A stretch of 61,288 bases of DNA from Methanomicrobiales archaeon (lineage in GTDB: Archaea; Halobacteriota; Methanomicrobia; Methanomicrobiales; JACTUA01), in NCBI GenBank assembly GCA_029907705.1, contig JARYLJ010000007.1, positions 1 through 61,288 of the forward strand, written 5' to 3'. The position numbers and the translations under genes are program-made. How positions within the stretch are numbered: the first letter of the stretch is position 1; each line of letters starts with the position of its first letter. This document shows, one piece after another, positions 21,954 to 58,544 of the stretch. A model generated the notes under the pieces. That model worked only from the letters and a program-made list of their open reading frames with translations, did not search any database and was not told the DNA's origin.

Positions 21954-23204
21954 ATGGCAGCCACGATAGTGGAGAAGATATTCTCCCGGAAGTGCGGGCG
22001 TGATATACGCGCGGGTGAGGTGGTGATGGCACCGGTCGATCGTGCGATGATACACGACATCACGGGGCCCCTCGCCATCGAAAAGATGCGGGAGATGGGT
22101 GGCGATAGGGTCTTCGATCCGGCGGGAGTGATCATGCTCTTCGATCACCAGATACCTGCGGACTCGATCCAGGCGGCGGAGATCCACCAGCGGATGCGCC
22201 TCTTTGCCGGGGAGCAGGGAATCGGAAACCTCGACCTGAGGGAGGGTATATGCCATCAGGTGATGATGGAGCGTGGCTACGCCGCTCCTGGCGAGATCGT
22301 CGTGGGCGCTGACTCGCACACCTGTATGTACGGTGCAGCCGGCGCTTTCGCTACTGGAATAGGATCGACCGATATGGGCTTTGTCTTGCGCTTCGGTGCA
22401 CTCTACTTCAGGGTGCCCGAGAGCATCCGGTGCGAAGTCGAGGGCAGGTTCCCCCGCCGTGTGGGTCCGAAGGACCTTATACTGTACATCACCGGCGCAG
22501 TAGGAGCCGATGGAGCCACCTACCAGGCACTGGAGTTCTCCGGCAATACCTTCTCGGAGATGGAGATGGCCGGCAGGATGACCTGCTGCAACATGGCGAT
22601 CGAAATGGGGGCGAAGGCAGGCATTGTACCGCCTGACGAGACTACATGGGCCTATATCAGGGAGAGGCGCACGATGGAGCCCTTCGACCTTCAGAGCGAC
22701 ACGGATGCAGAGTACACGGAGTTCCGATCCTTCTGCGTGGATGAACTGGAGCCGCAGGTCGCTCTCCCCCATAACGTGGACCGCGTGGTTAGCGTCGAAG
22801 AGACTGCCGGGGTGAGGGTGGACCAGGTCTTCATCGGTTCCTGCACGAACGGGAGATATGAGGATCTCAGCGAAGCGGCAGATGTACTGGGGAGTTCTGA
22901 ATTCAGTAAGCGTGTGAGGGTGATCGTGATCCCTGCATCCAGGGAGGAGTACCTGAAGGCGCTCCGCGCCGGCATCATCGAGCGCTTCATCGAGGCGGGA
23001 GCATTAGTGGAGGCGCCCTGCTGTGGCCCCTGCATGGGGGGTGCCTTCGGGCTGCTTGCCCCGAAGGAGGTCTCTCTGTCCACCTCTAACAGAAACTTCA
23101 GGGGACGACAGGGGAGCACGGAGGCATCGATATACCTCTGCTCTGCTGCAACCGCTGCGGCGAGCGCGATATATGGCGAGATTACTGACCCGCGGGAGGT
23201 GTGA
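21954..23204 (+). CDS. leuC: 3-isopropylmalate/homoaconitate dehydratase large subunit
   Basis: The large subunit of an aconitase-superfamily hydro-lyase, either isopropylmalate isomerase (leucine) or methanogen homoaconitase AksD (coenzyme B). The 416-residue protein has the archaeal short form: FSRKCGRDIRAGEVVMAPVD, the MLFDHQIPADS segment, VVGADSHTCMYGAAGAFATG, and the cluster cysteines in FIGSCTNGRYEDL and CCGPCMGGAFGLL. These three cysteines ligate the 4Fe-4S cluster. It overlaps the small-subunit gene by four bases, and a LeuB-like gene follows, so the three successive reactions are in one operon. Which pathway it serves cannot be settled here. Confidence 0.93.
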   Translation: MAATIVEKIFSRKCGRDIRAGEVVMAPVDRAMIHDITGPLAIEKMREMGGDRVFDPAGVIMLFDHQIPADSIQAAEIHQRMRLFAGEQGIGNLDLREGICHQVMMERGYAAPGEIVVGADSHTCMYGAAGAFATGIGSTDMGFVLRFGALYFRVPESIRCEVEGRFPRRVGPKDLILYITGAVGADGATYQALEFSGNTFSEMEMAGRMTCCNMAIEMGAKAGIVPPDETTWAYIRERRTMEPFDLQSDTDAEYTEFRSFCVDELEPQVALPHNVDRVVSVEETAGVRVDQVFIGSCTNGRYEDLSEAADVLGSSEFSKRVRVIVIPASREEYLKALRAGIIERFIEAGALVEAPCCGPCMGGAFGLLAPKEVSLSTSNRNFRGRQGSTEASIYLCSAATAAASAIYGEITDPREV

Positions 23205-23704
23205 GGATGAGGGTGTGGAAGTTCGGTGACGATGTGGATACAGACGCAATCATCCAGGGGAAGTACCTGACATTCTATAAACCCGAGGAGCTGGCGAAGC
23301 ATGCATTCGAGGGTGTCAGACCTGAGTTCGCCAAGGAGGTGAAGTGGGGAGACGCAATCGTTGCGGGCAGGAACTTCGGTTGCGGCTCCTCGCGCGAGCA
23401 TGCACCCCTCGCCCTGCTGGGCAGCGGTGTGAGTATGGTGATAGCGAAGTCCTTTGCGAGGATCTTCTACAGAAACGCAGTAAACACAGGTCTGCTCGTT
23501 CTTGTGTCGGAGGAGACCGACGCGGTGCAGGACGGAGCGGAGATCGAGGTGAACATGAAAGGGGGGTGGTTCGAGTCCGGAGGAAGGCGCTTCCGCATCG
23601 AACCGATCCCTGCGTTCATGAAGGAGATCGTCAGCGCAGGAGGGCTGGTGCCCTATGCGAGGGGACTGAAGGAGGTGCCCCTGTGTACCGGATCGCGGCG
23701 GTAG
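23201..23704 (+). CDS. leuD: 3-isopropylmalate/homoaconitate dehydratase small subunit
   Basis: The 167-residue small (swivel-domain) subunit. It opens [19 protein letters not shown], with the DVDTD motif, and contains [18 protein letters not shown], the conserved substrate-site signature, then [17 protein letters not shown]. After IIQGKYL come T-F, so the specificity loop reads YLTF. Isopropylmalate isomerases are described as YLRT and methanogen homoaconitases as variants such as YLVY, so the loop here matches neither exactly. It overlaps both neighbours (leuC end, leuB start), giving a tightly coupled LeuCDB unit. Confidence 0.92.
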
Positions 23705-24804
23705 GCGGGGACGGTATCGGCCCCGAGGTGCTCAATGAAGGCAGAAAGGTGCTTGAGGCCGCTGCGGAGCGCTTCGGTTTCGGGATTGAATGGGTGGAGA
23801 TGGATCTCGGCGCGGAGCGGTACCTGAGGACAGGTGAACTGCTGACAGAGGAGGATATGGAGCTCCTCTCCTCCTGCAGGGCGATATATTTCGGCGCCAT
23901 AGGAGATGAGCGGGTGAAGCCAGGAGTTCTGGAGAAGGGCATACTCCTGACAATGCGTTTCCACTTCGACCAGTTCGTGAACCTGCGACCCGTGAGGCTG
24001 CTCAGGGGGATAAAATCGCCACTCGCCGAAAAGGGACCTGAAGATATCGACTTCGTCGTCGTGAGGGAAAATACGGAGGACTTCTATGTCGGCTTGGGCT
24101 CCCGCTTCAGAAGAAGGGAGAAGAAAGAGCTTGCAATGATGAGGGAGCTGTATCATGCAAAGTTCGGGATCGATGCGGAGAGCGATGCGGAGGAGGTGGC
24201 ATATCAGATAGGAGTGATCACCCGCGAGGGGGCGCGGCGTGTCATCGATTTCGCCTTCGATCTGGCGCAGAGGCGCCGAAAGAGGCTCACCTCCGTCGAC
24301 AAGGCGAATGTCCTCACCGAGGTGTATGGGCTGTGGAGGGAGGTCTTCTCGGAGGAGGCGCGGAGATACCCCGATGTCCAGACGGAGTTCAATTTCGTCG
24401 ATGCGATAACGATGTGGTTCGTGAAGAACCCCGAATGGTTCGACGTCGTGGTGACGCCGAATATGTTCGGGGATATCATCACGGACCTGGGTGCGATCAT
24501 CCAAGGGGGACTGGGTCTTGCTCCGGGTGGGAATATCAATCCAGCGGGGGTCTCCATGTTCGAACCCATCCATGGATCCGCCCCGAAATACCGTGGGAAG
24601 GGTGTGGCGAACCCGATCGCCACCATCTGGGCGGGATCGATGCTTCTCGCACTTCTGAACGAGGCAGAGGCTTCCGAAGCGGTCATGAGGGCGATTGAGC
24701 AATCCATCGCGAAAGGCGTGGTGACCCGCGATCTGGGTGGCGGTGCATCCACGCGCGAGGTGGGAGATGAGATCGCTGCCGGTGTCCTGGGTGGCGGCTG
24801 CTGA
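23683..24804 (+). CDS. leuB: Isopropylmalate/isocitrate-type beta-decarboxylating dehydrogenase
   Basis: A 373-residue NAD-dependent beta-decarboxylating dehydrogenase. Landmarks: [35 protein letters not shown], the KANVLTE catalytic-lysine segment, VDAITMWFVKNPEWFDVVVT, NMFGDIITDLGAIIQGGLGL and FEPIHGSAPKYRGKGVANP. It follows LeuCD, so it should oxidise isopropylmalate or homoisocitrate (AksF). The helix segment FDQFVNLRPVRLL also recalls tartrate/malate dehydrogenases of this family, so substrate is inferred from context. The GTG start at 23683 lies inside leuD. The stop is one base from that of the convergent nitrogenase-like gene. Confidence 0.9.
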   Translation: MYRIAAVGGDGIGPEVLNEGRKVLEAAAERFGFGIEWVEMDLGAERYLRTGELLTEEDMELLSSCRAIYFGAIGDERVKPGVLEKGILLTMRFHFDQFVNLRPVRLLRGIKSPLAEKGPEDIDFVVVRENTEDFYVGLGSRFRRREKKELAMMRELYHAKFGIDAESDAEEVAYQIGVITREGARRVIDFAFDLAQRRRKRLTSVDKANVLTEVYGLWREVFSEEARRYPDVQTEFNFVDAITMWFVKNPEWFDVVVTPNMFGDIITDLGAIIQGGLGLAPGGNINPAGVSMFEPIHGSAPKYRGKGVANPIATIWAGSMLLALLNEAEASEAVMRAIEQSIAKGVVTRDLGGGASTREVGDEIAAGVLGGGC

Positions 24805-24805
24805 G

Positions 24806-25945
24806 CTATCGCTCCCCAATCTTTCTGTTCATCAGCGCGTTCAACAGCTCCTCAAATAGAGAGAGGGTACCCTCAGGACCGATCAGCGCCCTCGACCTCA
24901 GCCGGATCTGTCCCCTCACGGGCAGCGTGATGGGGACGAATGCGGCCTCTCCTGCTAGAGAACGCTCGTACGAGGAGCCCAGGATGAGATCGGGCTTCTC
25001 CCCCTCCAGGCTCTCCTTCACCATGCTCAGATCGGGGCAGCGTTTCACCCCGAACCTGCTCTCTCGTGGATCGTTTCTGGAACCGATGAACGCGATTGTC
25101 GCGTCCAGGTATTCGCTCAGCCACTGGGCGACCGCAACCGCATATGCGAAGTTCCCATATATCGCGGCTGTTGGCGGATCATGCCTCTTAAGATACTTGT
25201 CGCAGGCGTAGGCAACCTTCTCTTCCGCCCTCTCCACTTCTGCGAGGACTGACGATACATCTGCATCGGGAAATCGCCTTTCCAGTCTCCTGAAGGCACC
25301 CGATGTCTCATGAAGACCGAGGAGGGAGCCTGTCTCTTCTCCCGCGCCGGATGCGAGGTCGGGGTTCAGGTTCAGGGTGAGTGGTCCCGCCCGCCATACA
25401 TCCTCCACCGATCCTGCGCAGAACGTGGTCGCGATCGGGATCACTGCCGAGATCAGGAGTCTCTTCGCTTCGAGGAGGTTGCCATCGAAGAATGGATCCA
25501 TCAAATTCAGGCCATCGATGTTTACACCCTCCATCCCGGGGTCCACGCGAGGCTTGAGCGCCTCCAGTGCTATCCTGTAGCCTGTCTCCATACTGCCGAG
25601 GAATCCCGGGGCATCGACGATCACTGCATTCACTTCCCTGAGCATCGCCTGCATATCCTCGCCGATGACAGCTGGCACGCAGGTGGTGACCAGGGCGATG
25701 AGTGCGTACCTCCCCTCCAGTTCGCGGATCACCTCCTTCACCCGCTCCTCCGAGCCGAAAATTACCTCGCGCTCGAGTATCTGGGTTCCGTAAACAGTTC
25801 TGGGAAGGATGGAGGCGGGGTAGAAGTAGCATCCGCTGGACCCGTGGATCACCACTCCCAGATCTCCGAAGCCCGAGAGGCAGGAGACCGCACCTGCCAT
25901 CGCGCAGGGCCAGAGCGGATTATCGCATCCACGCATGTATCGCAC
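24806..25945 (-). CDS. NifD/NifK-like nitrogenase component 1 protein (K-like)
   Basis: A 379-residue protein of the oxidoreductase/nitrogenase component 1 superfamily, much shorter than true NifD or NifK (about 480-520). Three cysteines stand at the bridging-cluster positions: C14 (PLWPCAMAGA), C39 (VIHGSSGCYFYP) and C89 (VTTCVPAVIGED). Later segments include IATTFCAGSVEDVW and LILGSSYERSLAG. In the region where NifD has its FeMo-cofactor cysteine (NLxHC), this protein reads LNLNPDLASGAGEE, with no cysteine. It overlaps the D-like gene by 26 bases (17 if starting at M4). The short size resembles CfbD of F430 synthesis, but CfbD is a homodimer, whereas here two distinct subunits are encoded. 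Confidence 0.8.
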   Translation of the reverse strand: MRYMRGCDNPLWPCAMAGAVSCLSGFGDLGVVIHGSSGCYFYPASILPRTVYGTQILEREVIFGSEERVKEVIRELEGRYALIALVTTCVPAVIGEDMQAMLREVNAVIVDAPGFLGSMETGYRIALEALKPRVDPGMEGVNIDGLNLMDPFFDGNLLEAKRLLISAVIPIATTFCAGSVEDVWRAGPLTLNLNPDLASGAGEETGSLLGLHETSGAFRRLERRFPDADVSSVLAEVERAEEKVAYACDKYLKRHDPPTAAIYGNFAYAVAVAQWLSEYLDATIAFIGSRNDPRESRFGVKRCPDLSMVKESLEGEKPDLILGSSYERSLAGEAAFVPITLPVRGQIRLRSRALIGPEGTLSLFEELLNALMNRKIGER

Positions 25946-26975
25946 GCCTCCAGCGGTGCAGCATCCTCTTCAGCCCCGTGGTTCCGACAGGAGGGGGTAT
26001 GGGTATGGGTACTCTGACGCCGCTTTCAGAGGCGATGAGGCCGACCGCCTCCACCACCTCTCTTACGAACCTCTGGTCCAGCGTACTGCGTTCGAGCCTG
26101 ATCCTCTCCCCTTCGAGATCCGAGAAGCCCACCAGCATCTCCTGCTGGTGAGCCTGCTCCTTTCGGACGGGCTCCCTCACGTCCATGCCCAGCATCTCCC
26201 CCACCATGCACAGAAATTCGAGCGTTCCTTCGAGGCCAATCGGGAAGGATGATATGTACGGCGACCCGAAACGTTTCATCAGCTCCTCCCCGACCGTCGA
26301 AAGCCGTGATTCCCTCAGTATATTGAGGCGAACAGTGCTGAGGAGTCTGATATCATTCACGCAGCACTTCCTTGCGAACCTGAGCGTGACTTTTTCGCCA
26401 AAGAGGGCAAGAAGACGGCTCACCTCATGGAAGTTTTCCTCCACCTCGAACTCGAGGTTCTTCTCCCCGATGACCGCGATCCCTGACTTTTCTGATTCAT
26501 CTGTATCTACCTGCCGGGCAAGGGTGATCAGTGCGTTTGCAACGCCCTTTTCAAAGCCGCCCCCGAGAAACCCGGAAGTGGGAATACAGATCACAGGTAG
26601 TTCCCAGTCTTTCCGGCAGATCGCCTGCAGATCGTCCCCGATAGTATCCACGATGCAGGTGGAGAGAACATATATGCAGGAAGGCGTTAGGAGCGATGCC
26701 TCTCGGATCACCTCCTCCAGCGCTCCTTCGCCTCCGAAGATGATTTCCTCCTCACACAGGTCAGTTGCAATGATTCTGGGAAGAGAATCACTACCAAATT
26801 CCTGCAGGGTTGCATGGATGAGAGAGAAGTTATGGTGTGCACATCCCGAAGGCCCATGCACGATGGTGATGCTATCAGTCACCCCTGTCGTGATCGAGAG
26901 AGCGCCGAGCAGGGTGCATCCCTCCATGCGCGATGATTCACAGAGCTGAGGAAGGACCTTCATCTGCCAGTTCAC
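25920..26975 (-). CDS. NifD/NifK-like nitrogenase component 1 protein (D-like)
   Basis: A 351-residue second component-1-type subunit, partner of the overlapping 24806-25945 product. Cysteines at family positions are C20 (MEGCTLLGA), C45 (IVHGPSGCAHHN) and C107 (VLSTCIVDTIGDD), the last being the near-invariant STCxxxxIGDD motif. The segment equivalent to the NifD cofactor-cysteine region reads VRLNILRESRLSTVGEE and lacks Cys. The GTG start at 26975 could also be ATG 26963. A TATA-like CTTTATACAG (27051-27061, minus strand) may give it a promoter apart from the H gene, 326 bases upstream. Cluster type and substrate are unknown; transfer of electrons from the H protein is inferred from the superfamily. 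Confidence 0.8.
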   Translation of the reverse strand: MNWQMKVLPQLCESSRMEGCTLLGALSITTGVTDSITIVHGPSGCAHHNFSLIHATLQEFGSDSLPRIIATDLCEEEIIFGGEGALEEVIREASLLTPSCIYVLSTCIVDTIGDDLQAICRKDWELPVICIPTSGFLGGGFEKGVANALITLARQVDTDESEKSGIAVIGEKNLEFEVEENFHEVSRLLALFGEKVTLRFARKCCVNDIRLLSTVRLNILRESRLSTVGEELMKRFGSPYISSFPIGLEGTLEFLCMVGEMLGMDVREPVRKEQAHQQEMLVGFSDLEGERIRLERSTLDQRFVREVVEAVGLIASESGVRVPIPIPPPVGTTGLKRMLHRWRRAIHAWMR

Positions 26976-27301
26976 CCGAAATCGTATGAATCATATGGGC
27001 AAGGCTCCACCTCGGGGGGCAATTTTCCCGATCGAACAAAAAGCCATGCGCTGTATAAAGGGAGGGGTGCCGCATGGCAGGTGGCCTGATATGTGGGCGG
27101 GGTCGTGCTGAAGCCATCGGGCGCCCCTTTCTCATGGGTTATCAGGCCCACTTTGAATATCAGTGGGAGAGAGTTGTCGGCTCCTGTTTTGTTGCATTCA
27201 ACAGGTTCAGCTACGGTGATACAAGTGCTGGGATGCAAGCGACTGCCTCTGCCTCTGGATGCTTTCCTGATGCACATGCGTTATTGCTCCTTCGTTTCTA
27301 T
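26976..27301. other. Gap between NifH-like and NifD-like genes
   Basis: About 325 bases with no recognisable gene. True nif operons often carry glnB-type genes here, but I see no PII-like sequence in any frame. The minus strand carries CTTTATACAG around 27051-27061, a candidate TATA element for the D-like gene. Nothing indicates a terminator, so the three genes may still share transcripts. Confidence 0.4.
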
Positions 27302-28114
27302 TTACAGGAAAGAGATGGCGAGCTCCTCGAGGCGATCCTGATCCATGGGGGTGGGGATAGTTCTTATGGTGTTCTCCAGGATGTGCCACGCCAGATCTCT
27401 ATAAAGGCCTGCCTGCGCAGAATCGGGCTCGTACTCGATGACCGTCATTTTATGAAGCTCTGCCAGCTGTACGATCCGATCCCGAGGGATGAAGCCCACA
27501 AACCTACCTCCTATCTCCTGTGAGAACTCCTCCACCAGCTCGCGCTCCCTCTCGATGCTGGCGGAGTTGCAGATTACCCCGCCCAGCCTGCATCGGCTCC
27601 GCCCCTGCTGTGCCAGCCTTGCAATCGCCCTGCAGATGTTGTTCGCTGCATAGAGGGACATCAGTTCGCCAGAAGTGACCAAATACACCTCCTCCGCATA
27701 ACCCTCACGCATCGGCATGGCGAACCCGCCGCAGACGACGTCGCCGAGCACATCGTAGACGATGATCTCCCCCTTCAACGCCCCTAGCCTCTCCAGGAGC
27801 TGGAAGGTGGCGATGATGCCGCGGCCCGCGCACCCGACCCCGGGTTCGGGACCCCCCGCCTCCACGCACCTGACGCCGCGATATCCGGTGTGGACGACAT
27901 CCTGCAAGAGAATCTCCTTTTCTCCACGTTCGCGGACGAGATCCAGTACCGTGGGTATCCTCGCCCCGTGGAGGAGCATGCGTGTGCTGTCATGCTTCGG
28001 ATCGCACCCGATCTGCATCGTCTTCAGGCCATTTTGGGCGAAGGCGGCGGAGAGATTTGCCGCGGTGGTAGACTTGCCAATTCCCCCCTTACCGTAAAGG
28101 GCGATCTGCCTCAT
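27302..28114 (-). CDS. NifH-like iron protein (CfbC/NflH-type)
   Basis: A 270-residue P-loop iron protein. The nucleotide loop GKGGIGKST spans residues 8-16. C95 ([10 protein letters not shown]) and C128 ([13 protein letters not shown]) are the ligands of the 4Fe-4S cluster shared by a homodimer. R98 is the residue ADP-ribosylated in true NifH, and YDVLGD is the switch [17 protein letters not shown] and the C-terminal [12 protein letters not shown] also match. It should pass electrons with ATP hydrolysis to the two downstream component-1 subunits. On sequence alone NifH, CfbC and other group IV reductase proteins are hard to separate. A leader of about 100 bases and a short dyad precede it. 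Confidence 0.9.
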
Positions 28115-49876: not shown

Positions 49877-50424
49877 TGTCCGTTCACGATATCTTCGTCA
49901 ACAGGCGTGGGATCAACTCCATTGAACTACCCAGGCAGGTGGAGATGAATGCAGGCGGAGAACTTCTCCTCCGGTTCGTGAATAAGGGTCACCCCACGCA
50001 CATATCCATCTCTGCATTGAATCAGCAGCTCTATACCGATTTCATCCAGGAGAACCTGTACGTGGCGGACGAGATGGTCTACAGCATCCCCATCAAGGAT
50101 GGCCCATATTCGGGCGTATTCGATATCGAAGTGGTCACAGGTTATGGTACAAAGAGGGCCGCACTAAAGGTATTTGTGACAAAGAAACCGGAACCGGCAC
50201 CTGAATCCCAGAAAAAACCGGAAGAAGCGCGAACACCGCTTCTTTCGCATATGAACCTCGCGATGGTGCAGTGGCTCATGCTTGCGTTCGGAATCCTGGT
50301 ATTCCTCATCTGGATACTGCTCCGTTCAGACATCTTCCTCTCCATCGTCGACGCATTGCTCATTATCGCCTTTGTCCTGGTCGTCGCGGGCGTCTTCGTT
50401 GCATGGTTCTCCCAGCGGCAGTAG
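49873..50424 (+). CDS. DUF7524-like membrane protein
   Basis: A 183-residue protein. The N-terminal 105 residues are an all-beta extracytoplasmic-type domain (VNRRGINSIELPRQVEM, LRFVNKGHPTHISISAL, FDIEVVTGYGTKRAALKVF), followed by a proline-rich linker (KKPEPAPESQKKPEEA). Two hydrophobic helices follow (QWLMLAFGILVFLIWILL and IVDALLIIAFVLVVAGVFV). This resembles the archaeal DUF7524 family, function unknown. ATG 49873 or ATG 49876 are both possible; GTG 49867 is also in frame. It overlaps trm112 at its start and cbiB at its end. Confidence 0.75.
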   Translation: MMSVHDIFVNRRGINSIELPRQVEMNAGGELLLRFVNKGHPTHISISALNQQLYTDFIQENLYVADEMVYSIPIKDGPYSGVFDIEVVTGYGTKRAALKVFVTKKPEPAPESQKKPEEARTPLLSHMNLAMVQWLMLAFGILVFLIWILLRSDIFLSIVDALLIIAFVLVVAGVFVAWFSQRQ

Positions 50425-51338
50425 CAATCCTCGCCATTCTCATCGATAGAACGATCGGGGATCCACCCAGCCGGTACCATCCTGTAGCACTGCTGGGCAG
50501 ATTCATCGGCTGGTGGGGCAGACCCCCGCTCTACCCGGTGCCTCTGCAGAGGTCCATGGGTCTCCTGCTCTGGTTCATCACCACTGCCCTCTTTATCCTG
50601 CCATTCTTCCTCGTGGAGCGATTCACGCCCTTTCCGTTATACTTCCTGATCGCTCCGTTCCTCCTGAAGGCCTGTTTCGCATGGCGCTCCCTCGAGGAGC
50701 ACGCGTCGTCTGTCGTCCATGCAATCGATCGATCGATAGTGGAGGCGAGGATACAGGCCGGCCGGATGGTGAGCCGCCCCACGGAGACGCTGGAGAGAGA
50801 ACAGCTGTTATCCGCGGCATACGAGTCTGTCGCAGAGAATATCGTGGACAGCATCACAGCACCTCTCCTTTTTTACTTCGCGGGGGAGATCCTCGGAGGC
50901 CTGGGACTTGCCTTCGCCGCGCTCTATCGGGCAGCGAATACGATGGACGCGATGCTCGGTTACCCTGACGAGAGGGGGAGGCTCGGATGGGCGGCAGCCA
51001 GAATCGACGACATTCTCAACTTCGTCCCAGCAAGGATCACGGGCACCCTCATCCTCTGCTATTTCCTGTCGAGGGGCAGGGGGAGAGAGGCATGGTTTGC
51101 ATTCAGCAGGGATCACAGAAAAAGACCAGGAATAAACGGGGGTATTCCCATGTCGCTCCTCGCCGGAGGTGTCGGGGTTCAGTTCGAGAAACCGGGTGCA
51201 TACAGGATCGGCATACCTGAAAGGAGCCTCGAAGACGCAGGAGAGGATTTCATGCACCACTCGAATACGATCGTCATCGGTTTTCTCACGATTCTCGTGG
51301 TGGCACTATTTTTATTGGGTCTGCCCGCGAATGTATAA
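50403..51338 (+). CDS. cbiB: Adenosylcobinamide-phosphate synthase CbiB
   Basis: CbiB attaches the aminopropanol-type linker to adenosylcobyric acid in cobalamin synthesis. The 311-residue membrane protein shows [20 protein letters not shown] (family signature near the N-terminus), several hydrophobic helices, then [38 protein letters not shown] and [20 protein letters not shown]. The start at 50403 overlaps the preceding gene by 22 bases and the stop overlaps pdxS by eight. No other cobalamin gene is in the window, so the linkage to B6 genes is the only context. Confidence 0.93.
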
Positions 51339-54788: not shown

Positions 54789-55805
54789 TCACGCCTCATC
54801 GATTGCATGGTTGATCACATTCTCTGCGATATCGGCGCCGTACTCGCCTGCACGCCTGACGCTCTCCACGATATACCCTATCGAGAGCGCAATCGCGCCC
54901 TTCTTCTGCAGTGCCCGATCACTGATCCCGTCTGCCCTCTCCTCCAGCGTGCCGAGGGCTTCGATTACCCCATTTGCTTCCAGCACATTGCCAGAAAAGA
55001 GCGCTTTCATGGCCGAATCCAGGATCTCCATCGCCATTTCGTTTGTACTTTTCAGATCCTGCGCGAGCCGTTCATCGGGGCGTGATTCAATCAGTGTCGG
55101 GATGTATCGGGCAATCCTCTCTCCATGATCGCCTACCCTCTCCAGAATCCTGCTCACGATGTAGAACTCGAATGCAACCTTGAGTGATACCTTCATGCGC
55201 TCCATCAGACCGATCTCTTTGAGTAGCAGGTGGAACTGTCTGGCAATCAGCCAGTGGAGCCGGTCCACCTCCCGATCACGCCGCACGATATCCTTCGTGA
55301 GTTCCATATCACCATTCTGAAGCGCAGTCATGCCATCACGGTACATGCTCTTCACAATCAGGTACATCCGCCTGATGCTGCTTTCGAAAGGCATCTCCGC
55401 CGGATTGAGGAGGTCCTTCAGGGTGAGACTCGACTCGGTCTCATCCACGATCTCCTGGCCGATCGTCATCTGGGTGAACTCGTTCACCATGTTCCTGAAT
55501 GCAGGCGCCAGACGGCTTCTGGAGGTGATACGGATCACCGTATGTCCGGTGATATACGCACCTATCAGCGTCCTGAGAAAGAATTTGGGGTCCCCGATCT
55601 TATCGACATCGATGCTTTTTACCGTCGGTTCAGATGCTCTGCTCACACGGGGCGTGACCAGTAGCGTGCCATCGGGCTGTACCCTCACCAGAAGTGGATC
55701 GTTCTTCCTGATGTTCATAGCACGGGCCCATTCCTTGGGGAGCGAGACCACAAAGGAAGACCCGCCCGTGATCTGCACCTTCCGTATCTCCATCCTCGCA
55801 CTCAC
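54789..55805 (-). CDS. AbrB-PhoU type phosphate/uptake regulator
   Basis: A 338-residue regulator with an N-terminal SpoVT/AbrB DNA-binding domain (EIRKVQITGGSSFVVSLPKE, WARAMNIRKNDPLLVRVQPD) and a C-terminal PhoU part with two helical bundles (DIVRRDREVDRLHWLIARQF, FEFYIVSRILERVGDHGERI and YIVESVRRAGEYGADIAENV). The latter contains E-x3-D-type metal motifs. Archaeal AbrB-PhoU proteins are often linked to Pst phosphate transport. No pst gene is present here, so the target is inferred. It starts with ATG 55805 or 55793. Confidence 0.92.
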   Translation of the reverse strand: MSARMEIRKVQITGGSSFVVSLPKEWARAMNIRKNDPLLVRVQPDGTLLVTPRVSRASEPTVKSIDVDKIGDPKFFLRTLIGAYITGHTVIRITSRSRLAPAFRNMVNEFTQMTIGQEIVDETESSLTLKDLLNPAEMPFESSIRRMYLIVKSMYRDGMTALQNGDMELTKDIVRRDREVDRLHWLIARQFHLLLKEIGLMERMKVSLKVAFEFYIVSRILERVGDHGERIARYIPTLIESRPDERLAQDLKSTNEMAMEILDSAMKALFSGNVLEANGVIEALGTLEERADGISDRALQKKGAIALSIGYIVESVRRAGEYGADIAENVINHAIDEA

Positions 55806-57494: not shown

Positions 57495-58544
57495 TCAATC
57501 CAGATGATGCACCTCCTTCAGGAGCGAGATCACCTCCGATGTGCTCTCGTTCACACTCCTATCTCTCACGTCTGATCTCTTCCGTTCCATCAACGCTCGG
57601 AAGATGCAGCCGACTGCGTCACCATGTGAGGGGCCATACCCTCCCTCGAGGATGAGGGCGACGGGAAGATCAAGGGTATCGAGCAGGATGCCCATGAGCG
57701 CCCCATAATCTGGTGCGCGCAACCTCATGGAGCTGAGAGGATCGTCCTTCAGTGCATCCTGACCGGCGGAGACGAGGAGAAGATCTGGATCGAACCTCAG
57801 CAGTGCCGGGGCGAATACCTCAGCAAAGACAGCGATGAAGTCCGGACCTGCCGATCCAGGAATCAGCGGCGCGTTGATGATCAACCCCTTCCCCGCTCCC
57901 TCCCCTGTCTCCATAGCATGGCCGGTGCAGGGAAACGCAAACCTGTCGTGGACAGAGCAATACATAACCCTTCCATGGGAATAGAACGCGTGTTGCGTCC
58001 CATTTCCGTGATGGAGGTCCCAGTCCACGATCGCGACTCTGTCCGCCTCCTCGAGCGCCTGCGCCGCTGCGATCCCGATATTATTCAGCAGGCAGAAGCC
58101 CATCGCCCGGCTGCTCTCCGCATGATGCCCCGGTGGCCGTACGAATGCAAAGCAGTCCTTTCCCTCGAGTGCCATCTCGGCCGCCCGGATCGCCGCACCC
58201 GCCGCATCGAGCGCCACCTGGTACGAGTGCCTGGTGACATAGGTATCGGGATCAATCATCCTTATCTGCCCCGACTCAGCGGCGACGCTTCGGAGCCATT
58301 CCAGATACCCACTGCTGTGGATTCTGAGCACCTGCCCGATCTCCGCAGATGGGGCGGCCAGCCTCCTCACTCCTGAAGGTACGCCCTGCATGGCCTGGAA
58401 GATCCGATAGTGGTTCTCCGGATGACCCTTCATATCATGGAGGGCGGAGCTCTTGTGGGTGATAGCAGCGCATTCGCTCAGAAAATCACCACAACGGGAG
58501 GTAGTCGAACGGAGAGAAAAATGTTGGGATGGACGTATGCACAA
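57495..58544 (-). CDS. Histone deacetylase-family protein
   Basis: A 349-residue protein of the arginase/HDAC deacetylase family (class II/acetoin-utilisation type). The signature elements are HDMKGHPENHYRIFQAMQ, VRPPGHHAESSRAMGFCLLN (catalytic His pair), the zinc ligands in AIVDWDLHHGNGTQHAFYSH, LLVSAGQDALKDDPLS and ALILEGGYGPSHGDAVG. All metal residues appear present. Archaeal members may deacetylate lysine in proteins such as Alba, polyamines, or other acetylated compounds. The start is uncertain because the first 35 residues are not conserved; ATG 58544 is used. A GNAT fusion is encoded elsewhere in the window. Confidence 0.9.
   Translation of the reverse strand: MCIRPSQHFSLRSTTSRCGDFLSECAAITHKSSALHDMKGHPENHYRIFQAMQGVPSGVRRLAAPSAEIGQVLRIHSSGYLEWLRSVAAESGQIRMIDPDTYVTRHSYQVALDAAGAAIRAAEMALEGKDCFAFVRPPGHHAESSRAMGFCLLNNIGIAAAQALEEADRVAIVDWDLHHGNGTQHAFYSHGRVMYCSVHDRFAFPCTGHAMETGEGAGKGLIINAPLIPGSAGPDFIAVFAEVFAPALLRFDPDLLLVSAGQDALKDDPLSSMRLRAPDYGALMGILLDTLDLPVALILEGGYGPSHGDAVGCIFRALMERKRSDVRDRSVNESTSEVISLLKEVHHLD

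Follow-up and report, generated by a model that had tools for sequence, protein, structure and literature searches.

A conserved nitrogenase-like gene set of the Methanomicrobiales, a candidate tetrapyrrole reductase that may share its iron protein with F430 biosynthesis

Background

Nitrogenase-like enzymes have each proved to do unexpected chemistry, among them the enzymes acting in the metabolism of chlorophyll, F430, methionine and sulfonates. Of the closest described systems, DPOR (BchLNB) and CfbCD reduce tetrapyrroles and contain only [4Fe-4S] clusters, and Mar has six P-cluster cysteines (PMC12552129). Methylthio-alkane reductase (Mar) and isethionate reductase (Isr), the group IV systems encoded as MarHDK and IsrHDK, belong to anaerobic metabolism and are likewise nitrogenase-like (PMC11423573), and [8Fe-9S-C] clusters are used in the activation of MCR (PMC12176620). 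Surveys of the nitrogenase-like sequences of methanogens exist; they cover the fusion proteins as well as another pair, from Methanocorpusculum, that has fewer cysteines (PMC3464626, PMC3733012). An archaeal NifH-D fusion accompanied by a K-like protein was noted by Dos Santos et al. in 2012, its function being unknown (PMC3464626). No description of the H-D-K gene set reported here was found in the open-access literature.

Results and Discussion

The H-D-K locus

The window, by which we mean the whole 61,288-nucleotide stretch of DNA analysed, is one contig of a 1.79-Mb genome that is 98.85% complete. Its minus strand carries genes for a NifH-family ATP-dependent iron protein of 270 amino acids (H; 27302-28114; PF00142, 2.6e-108), a NifD/NifE-like subunit of 351 amino acids (D; 25920-26975; PF00148, 2.2e-51) and a NifK-like subunit of 379 amino acids (K; 24806-25945; PF00148, 1.7e-44). 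These Pfam matches bear out the initial annotation, which had recognized a NifH-like protein and two short, overlapping NifD/NifK-like subunits, and the assignment to the nitrogenase-like reductases is firm. As that annotation also held, nifB, nifE, nifN, PII and molybdate genes were not seen in Pfam scans, which covered about 30 further open reading frames of the window.

The D and K genes overlap by 26 bp. On the same strand, H and D are separated by 326 bp (26976-27301) with no recognised gene, unlike the arrangement in many relatives, where H and D overlap; an open reading frame at 26972-27277 matched no family. PF00148 is matched by K over the whole profile (positions 1-398) and by D over positions 1-265 of 399 only.

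Convergent with K, on the plus strand at 21954-24804, are genes for the large and small subunits of an isopropylmalate/homoaconitate-type dehydratase and for an isopropylmalate-type dehydrogenase, the stop of the convergent isopropylmalate-type gene lying 1 bp from that of K. No tetrapyrrole gene was seen adjoining H-D-K in the window, where the only tetrapyrrole-related gene seen codes for a homolog of CobD/CbiB (cobalamin biosynthesis; 50271-51335, plus strand), about 22 kb from H. The minus strand also encodes a PhoU-domain protein with a MazE-type N-terminal domain (54792-55805) and a histone-deacetylase-family protein (57498-58544).

Distribution and loss of D and K

When 394 genomes of the phylum (Halobacteriota) were searched with a D profile, full-length orthologues were found only within the Methanomicrobiales, and the matches outside the order, at about 190 bits or less, were NifH-D fusions of about 735-807 amino acids. 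The H-D-K set is not a chance association: among the 135 genomes of the order that are at least 90% complete, K occurs in 126 and D in 124. D was never found without K in these 135, and K without D was found in two genomes, both fragmented (190 and 310 contigs).

Both D and K are absent from nine of the 135, namely the seven genomes that make up genus g29 (G393 and G445-G450), G049 and G433. H is kept in eight of the nine, at 67-70% identity, the exception being G433 (91% complete); in G049 the neighbourhood of H is otherwise intact and D and K are gone. Since the eight H sequences form one clade (support 95), the simplest account is a single, joint loss of D and K. When these H proteins were examined for residues released by the absence of D and K, a few sites differed, but as the genomes belong to one clade the differences prove nothing. 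In five of the seven g29 genomes a NifH-D fusion is apparently present instead.

The loss in one clade, together with the shortness of D, might suggest that an older nitrogenase-like enzyme survives here only in degenerate or vestigial form. We find this barely credible: across the order, at 38-55% identity between orthologues, the cysteines and motifs are intact and invariant, and both genes are present in about 92% of the well-completed genomes.

Relationship to known families

In a tree of 63 rows, D is sister to the D part of the archaeal NifH-D fusions (100/98.7), and K, the fusion K and CfbD stand on a common branch (97/90). Within the latter, K with CfbD alone has a support of 72/9; a grouping of K with the fusion K is not the best tree, yet it was not rejected (p-AU 0.453). 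Neither H nor D nor K of the window grouped with Nif, NifEN or Mar-type proteins, the Mar-type references having been assigned by gene context and Isr sequences being absent from the tree. A version including BchN and BchB showed long branches, and the tree was rebuilt without these two. The suggestion of a group IV-type reductase stands as regards a heteromeric nitrogenase-like reductase and is not borne out as regards group IV, given that the nearest kin of D are the fusions.

Four established identities were tried for D and K and rejected. As CfbD, they score 47.3 and 45.9 bits, respectively, against a TIGR03282 cut-off of 268.4, and D groups with the fusion D. As nitrogenase NifDK they possess the six P-cluster cysteines, but D is without the cofactor cysteine and histidine, and they form a separate clade. 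NifE/N was discarded on the absence from D of the cluster-binding cysteine of NifE and because no nif cluster was found, and Mar because D and K fall outside the Mar-type clade and D has no active-site cluster cysteine.

The genome contains four PF00148 proteins: D, K, a CfbD on contig C43 and a solo protein on contig C57. Neither NifE nor NifN was found in it, the solo protein lying far below the cut-offs for both. The solo protein (392 amino acids, NifD-like; L001:1468-2646 of G000:C57, minus strand) has no K partner and carries three P-cluster-type cysteines plus a cysteine at the cofactor-ligand site. Its gene lies near CobN and ChlI/D-type genes here (L070) and, in G013, close to cfbB-cfbD-cfbE (L082). 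Some Methanomicrobiales have a further uncharacterised nitrogenase-like set, with two component-1 genes followed by their own NifH (L080, L085, L086, L091), which occupies its own clades.

Conserved residues and predicted folds of D and K

Residue conservation was assessed in alignments of 31 D and 30 K orthologues from across the order. The P-cluster cysteines are conserved in both subunits (C20, C45 and C107 of D; C14, C39 and C89 of K), and C7 of K is an extra invariant cysteine. In this respect D and K, with three such cysteines each, resemble the Mo-nitrogenase subunits and Mar and differ from CfbD, which has two, and from BchB of DPOR, which is without cysteine at two of the three positions.

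The cofactor ligands of NifD are Cys275 and His442. In the alignment with NifD, NifE and Mar-type proteins, the position of the cofactor-binding cysteine is occupied in D by an invariant arginine (Arg221), and at the cofactor-histidine site D has no residue, the region being absent. Past the point that aligns with NifD residue 330, D continues for about 80 residues, as against at least 114 in all other aligned proteins; its shortness is due to most of domain III being missing, in all 31 orthologues. Judged from these alignments, D cannot hold a FeMo-type cluster in the known way, because arginine replaces the cofactor cysteine, the site of the histidine is absent and domain III is largely missing. 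Arg187, Arg199 and a GEKNLE motif are also conserved in D; we speculate from their conservation that they and Arg221 could hold carboxylates.

As modelled by AF2 at good confidence (pLDDT 88.8, pTM 0.86), D retains only fragments of a collapsed domain III, a departure from DPOR, whose BchB it otherwise resembles in fold; Foldseek matched the model to NifD, NifE and BchB with TM values of 0.62-0.72. The model of K (pLDDT 92.6, pTM 0.91) has a regular NifK-type fold with three domains, matching VnfK, NifK and AnfK at TMq 0.84-0.86 and also NifN. Fold and P-cluster cysteines are thus shared with Mo-nitrogenase NifHDK and NifEN, while the subunits here are much shorter.

The best PDB matches of D were NifE, and the genome has a nifB (contig C29, above its cut-off). 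Perhaps, then, D and K serve, in the manner of NifEN, as a scaffold for maturing the [8Fe-9S-C] clusters of the MCR activation complex. This is quite unlikely, as the cluster-binding cysteine of NifE is an arginine in every D, and D and K are confined to one order and lost in one of its clades, whereas MCR activation is general.

A single iron protein in the genome

H is the only NifH-family protein found in this genome, and by manual count a single NifH match is the state of 39 of 54 well-completed genomes of the order. It passes the NCBIfam model for CfbC (NF033200; 410.9 bits, cut-off 402). The true CfbD (496 bits by TIGR03282) is on contig C43, with CfbE (336.8 bits, cut-off 250) and a CfbB homolog as its neighbours. 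No cfbC was found beside this cfbD-cfbE-cfbB locus, whereas in other Halobacteriota CfbC adjoins CfbD and CfbB. The possibility raised in the initial annotation, of cfbC and cfbD genes elsewhere in the genome, is accordingly upheld for cfbD and fails for cfbC, and its view that the locus is not a simple CfbCD agrees with D and K lying outside the CfbD clade.

CfbD needs an H-type partner for F430 synthesis. As the genome has one NifH, H is probably that partner, and its retention where D and K were lost also suggests that it acts as CfbC. We infer that H probably doubles as CfbC, common to CfbD and to D and K. In the H tree, the proteins of the order form their own clade adjoining the fusion H (92/86) and outside canonical CfbC; the grouping of H with CfbC was not rejected (p-AU 0.137). 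Taken at face value, the best tree would have H arriving with D and K and displacing the canonical CfbC.

Could D and K be a second enzyme of F430 biosynthesis, a heteromeric form of CfbD working in place of the homodimer or as its backup? H as the likely CfbC of the genome, and the branch common to K, the fusion K and CfbD, would be in keeping with this. CfbD, though, is a single homodimeric subunit, here encoded separately and in full with cfbE and cfbB, and D and K are two distinct subunits, of which D groups with the fusion D and K joins CfbD alone with low support only. In addition, the genomes without D and K keep H and presumably make F430. A second CfbD is consequently very doubtful, and the loss of D and K in one clade implies that they are not required for F430.

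Gene neighbourhoods and the fusion sister group

Upstream of H-D-K the recurrent neighbours are FprA, desulfoferrodoxin, a TrkH-like transporter and a PRK-type kinase; downstream they are the isopropylmalate-type genes. The FprA and TrkH neighbours are those that we take to be such from reading their sequences, not via a profile. They were rejected as a functional clue to D and K, since FprA or TrkH adjoins H also where D and K have been lost. In one family a NifX-type protein is convergent with the 3' end of K (L052:7699-8217, L053:11660-12181, L035:9945-10478); that of L052 matches PF02579 and has a rubredoxin-like CxxC tail.

The proximity of the oxygen-stress genes FprA and desulfoferrodoxin would suit a system in which ATP gates the flow of low-potential electrons to a partner protein, for instance in the reductive repair of MCR or of a corrinoid protein. 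The partner would dock at an open cavity, which the loss of domain III should expose in the model of D. Such a role is doubtful: there is no conserved adjoining partner gene, and both oxygen-stress genes are found near H also where D and K are lost.

A C-S reductase serving sulfur assimilation, akin to Mar or Isr, is another candidate. The six P-cluster cysteines are as in Mar, the gene layout is that of MarHDK and IsrHDK, and both of these are nitrogenase-like enzymes of anaerobic metabolism. We regard it as unlikely, since D and K form a clade apart from Mar-type proteins, D has no cofactor ligands, and no partner gene of the radical-SAM or sulfur-assimilation kind is recurrent around H-D-K. 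Among the substrates put forward in the initial annotation, the sulfur compound is unsupported for the latter two reasons, and the tetrapyrrole is the best of those offered.

The sister group points in the same direction. At eight fusion loci we found a FecCD/BtuC-type transporter with ATPase and binding protein (6/8), the adenosylcobinamide amidohydrolase CbiZ (5/8), ChlI/D-type genes (4/8) and CobN (3/8). In operons of a fusion with a K-like gene (L129-L133, L136) the associated genes are the FecCD/BtuC-type transporter, CbiZ, CbiK, CobN and ChlI/D-type genes. The fusion system looks like one of tetrapyrrole salvage or remodelling, and this corrinoid-like context of uptake and metal insertion supports a tetrapyrrole substrate for the fusions and, less directly, for D and K; the genes around H-D-K themselves give no such indication. 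The two systems have in common the sister relationship of D, the placement of H next to the fusion H in the best tree and of K on a branch with the fusion K and CfbD, and the absence of the cofactor cysteine. They differ in that H and D are separate genes in the Methanomicrobiales and fused in the sister group, that D here is without most of domain III, and that no transporter or chelatase genes adjoin H-D-K. Against the analogy, the fusion K is without two of the three P-cluster cysteines, all of which are present in K here, and the sister system may work differently.

A proposed function

Our preferred reading, to which we give about an even chance (probability roughly 0.5), is an ATP-driven two-component reductase of the Methanomicrobiales, with a tetrapyrrole as the most likely substrate and with H serving CfbD as well. 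The H dimer would hydrolyse ATP and hand single electrons to a heteromer of D and K. Where D meets K, the six conserved cysteines would hold an iron-sulfur cluster, probably of the P-cluster type, and through it the electrons would reach an organic substrate. This would sit in the cavity of D, which the lack of most of domain III would make wider. Direct binding of the substrate, like that in DPOR and CfbCD, is probable because D offers no ligand for a FeMo-type cluster. It would most likely be a tetrapyrrole, perhaps a derivative of F430 or a corrinoid, and the same H would also supply CfbD in F430 synthesis.

Against a tetrapyrrole stand the lack of an adjoining tetrapyrrole gene and the cluster ligands: DPOR, which occurs in other organisms, and CfbCD have [4Fe-4S] clusters only, and D and K keep six P-cluster cysteines like Nif and Mar. 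A bolder version can be framed, although we think it unlikely. Here a component 1 with P-cluster ligands, no active-site cluster and an opened D would act on a tetrapyrrole that is large or bound to protein, F430 in MCR being an example, and H, having displaced the canonical CfbC, would be one iron protein driving two catalytic components.

Biological significance

The H-D-K set is a conserved and apparently undescribed member of the nitrogenase-like enzymes, present in nearly all of one methanogen order. The combination of P-cluster cysteines with a D that has no active-site cluster ligands bears on the origin of P-clusters and of FeMo-type clusters. Caution is due with nifH surveys and CfbC annotations in the Methanomicrobiales, as these really count H. 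If H serves both CfbD and D/K, one iron protein would supply two catalytic components, one of which is essential for methanogenesis.
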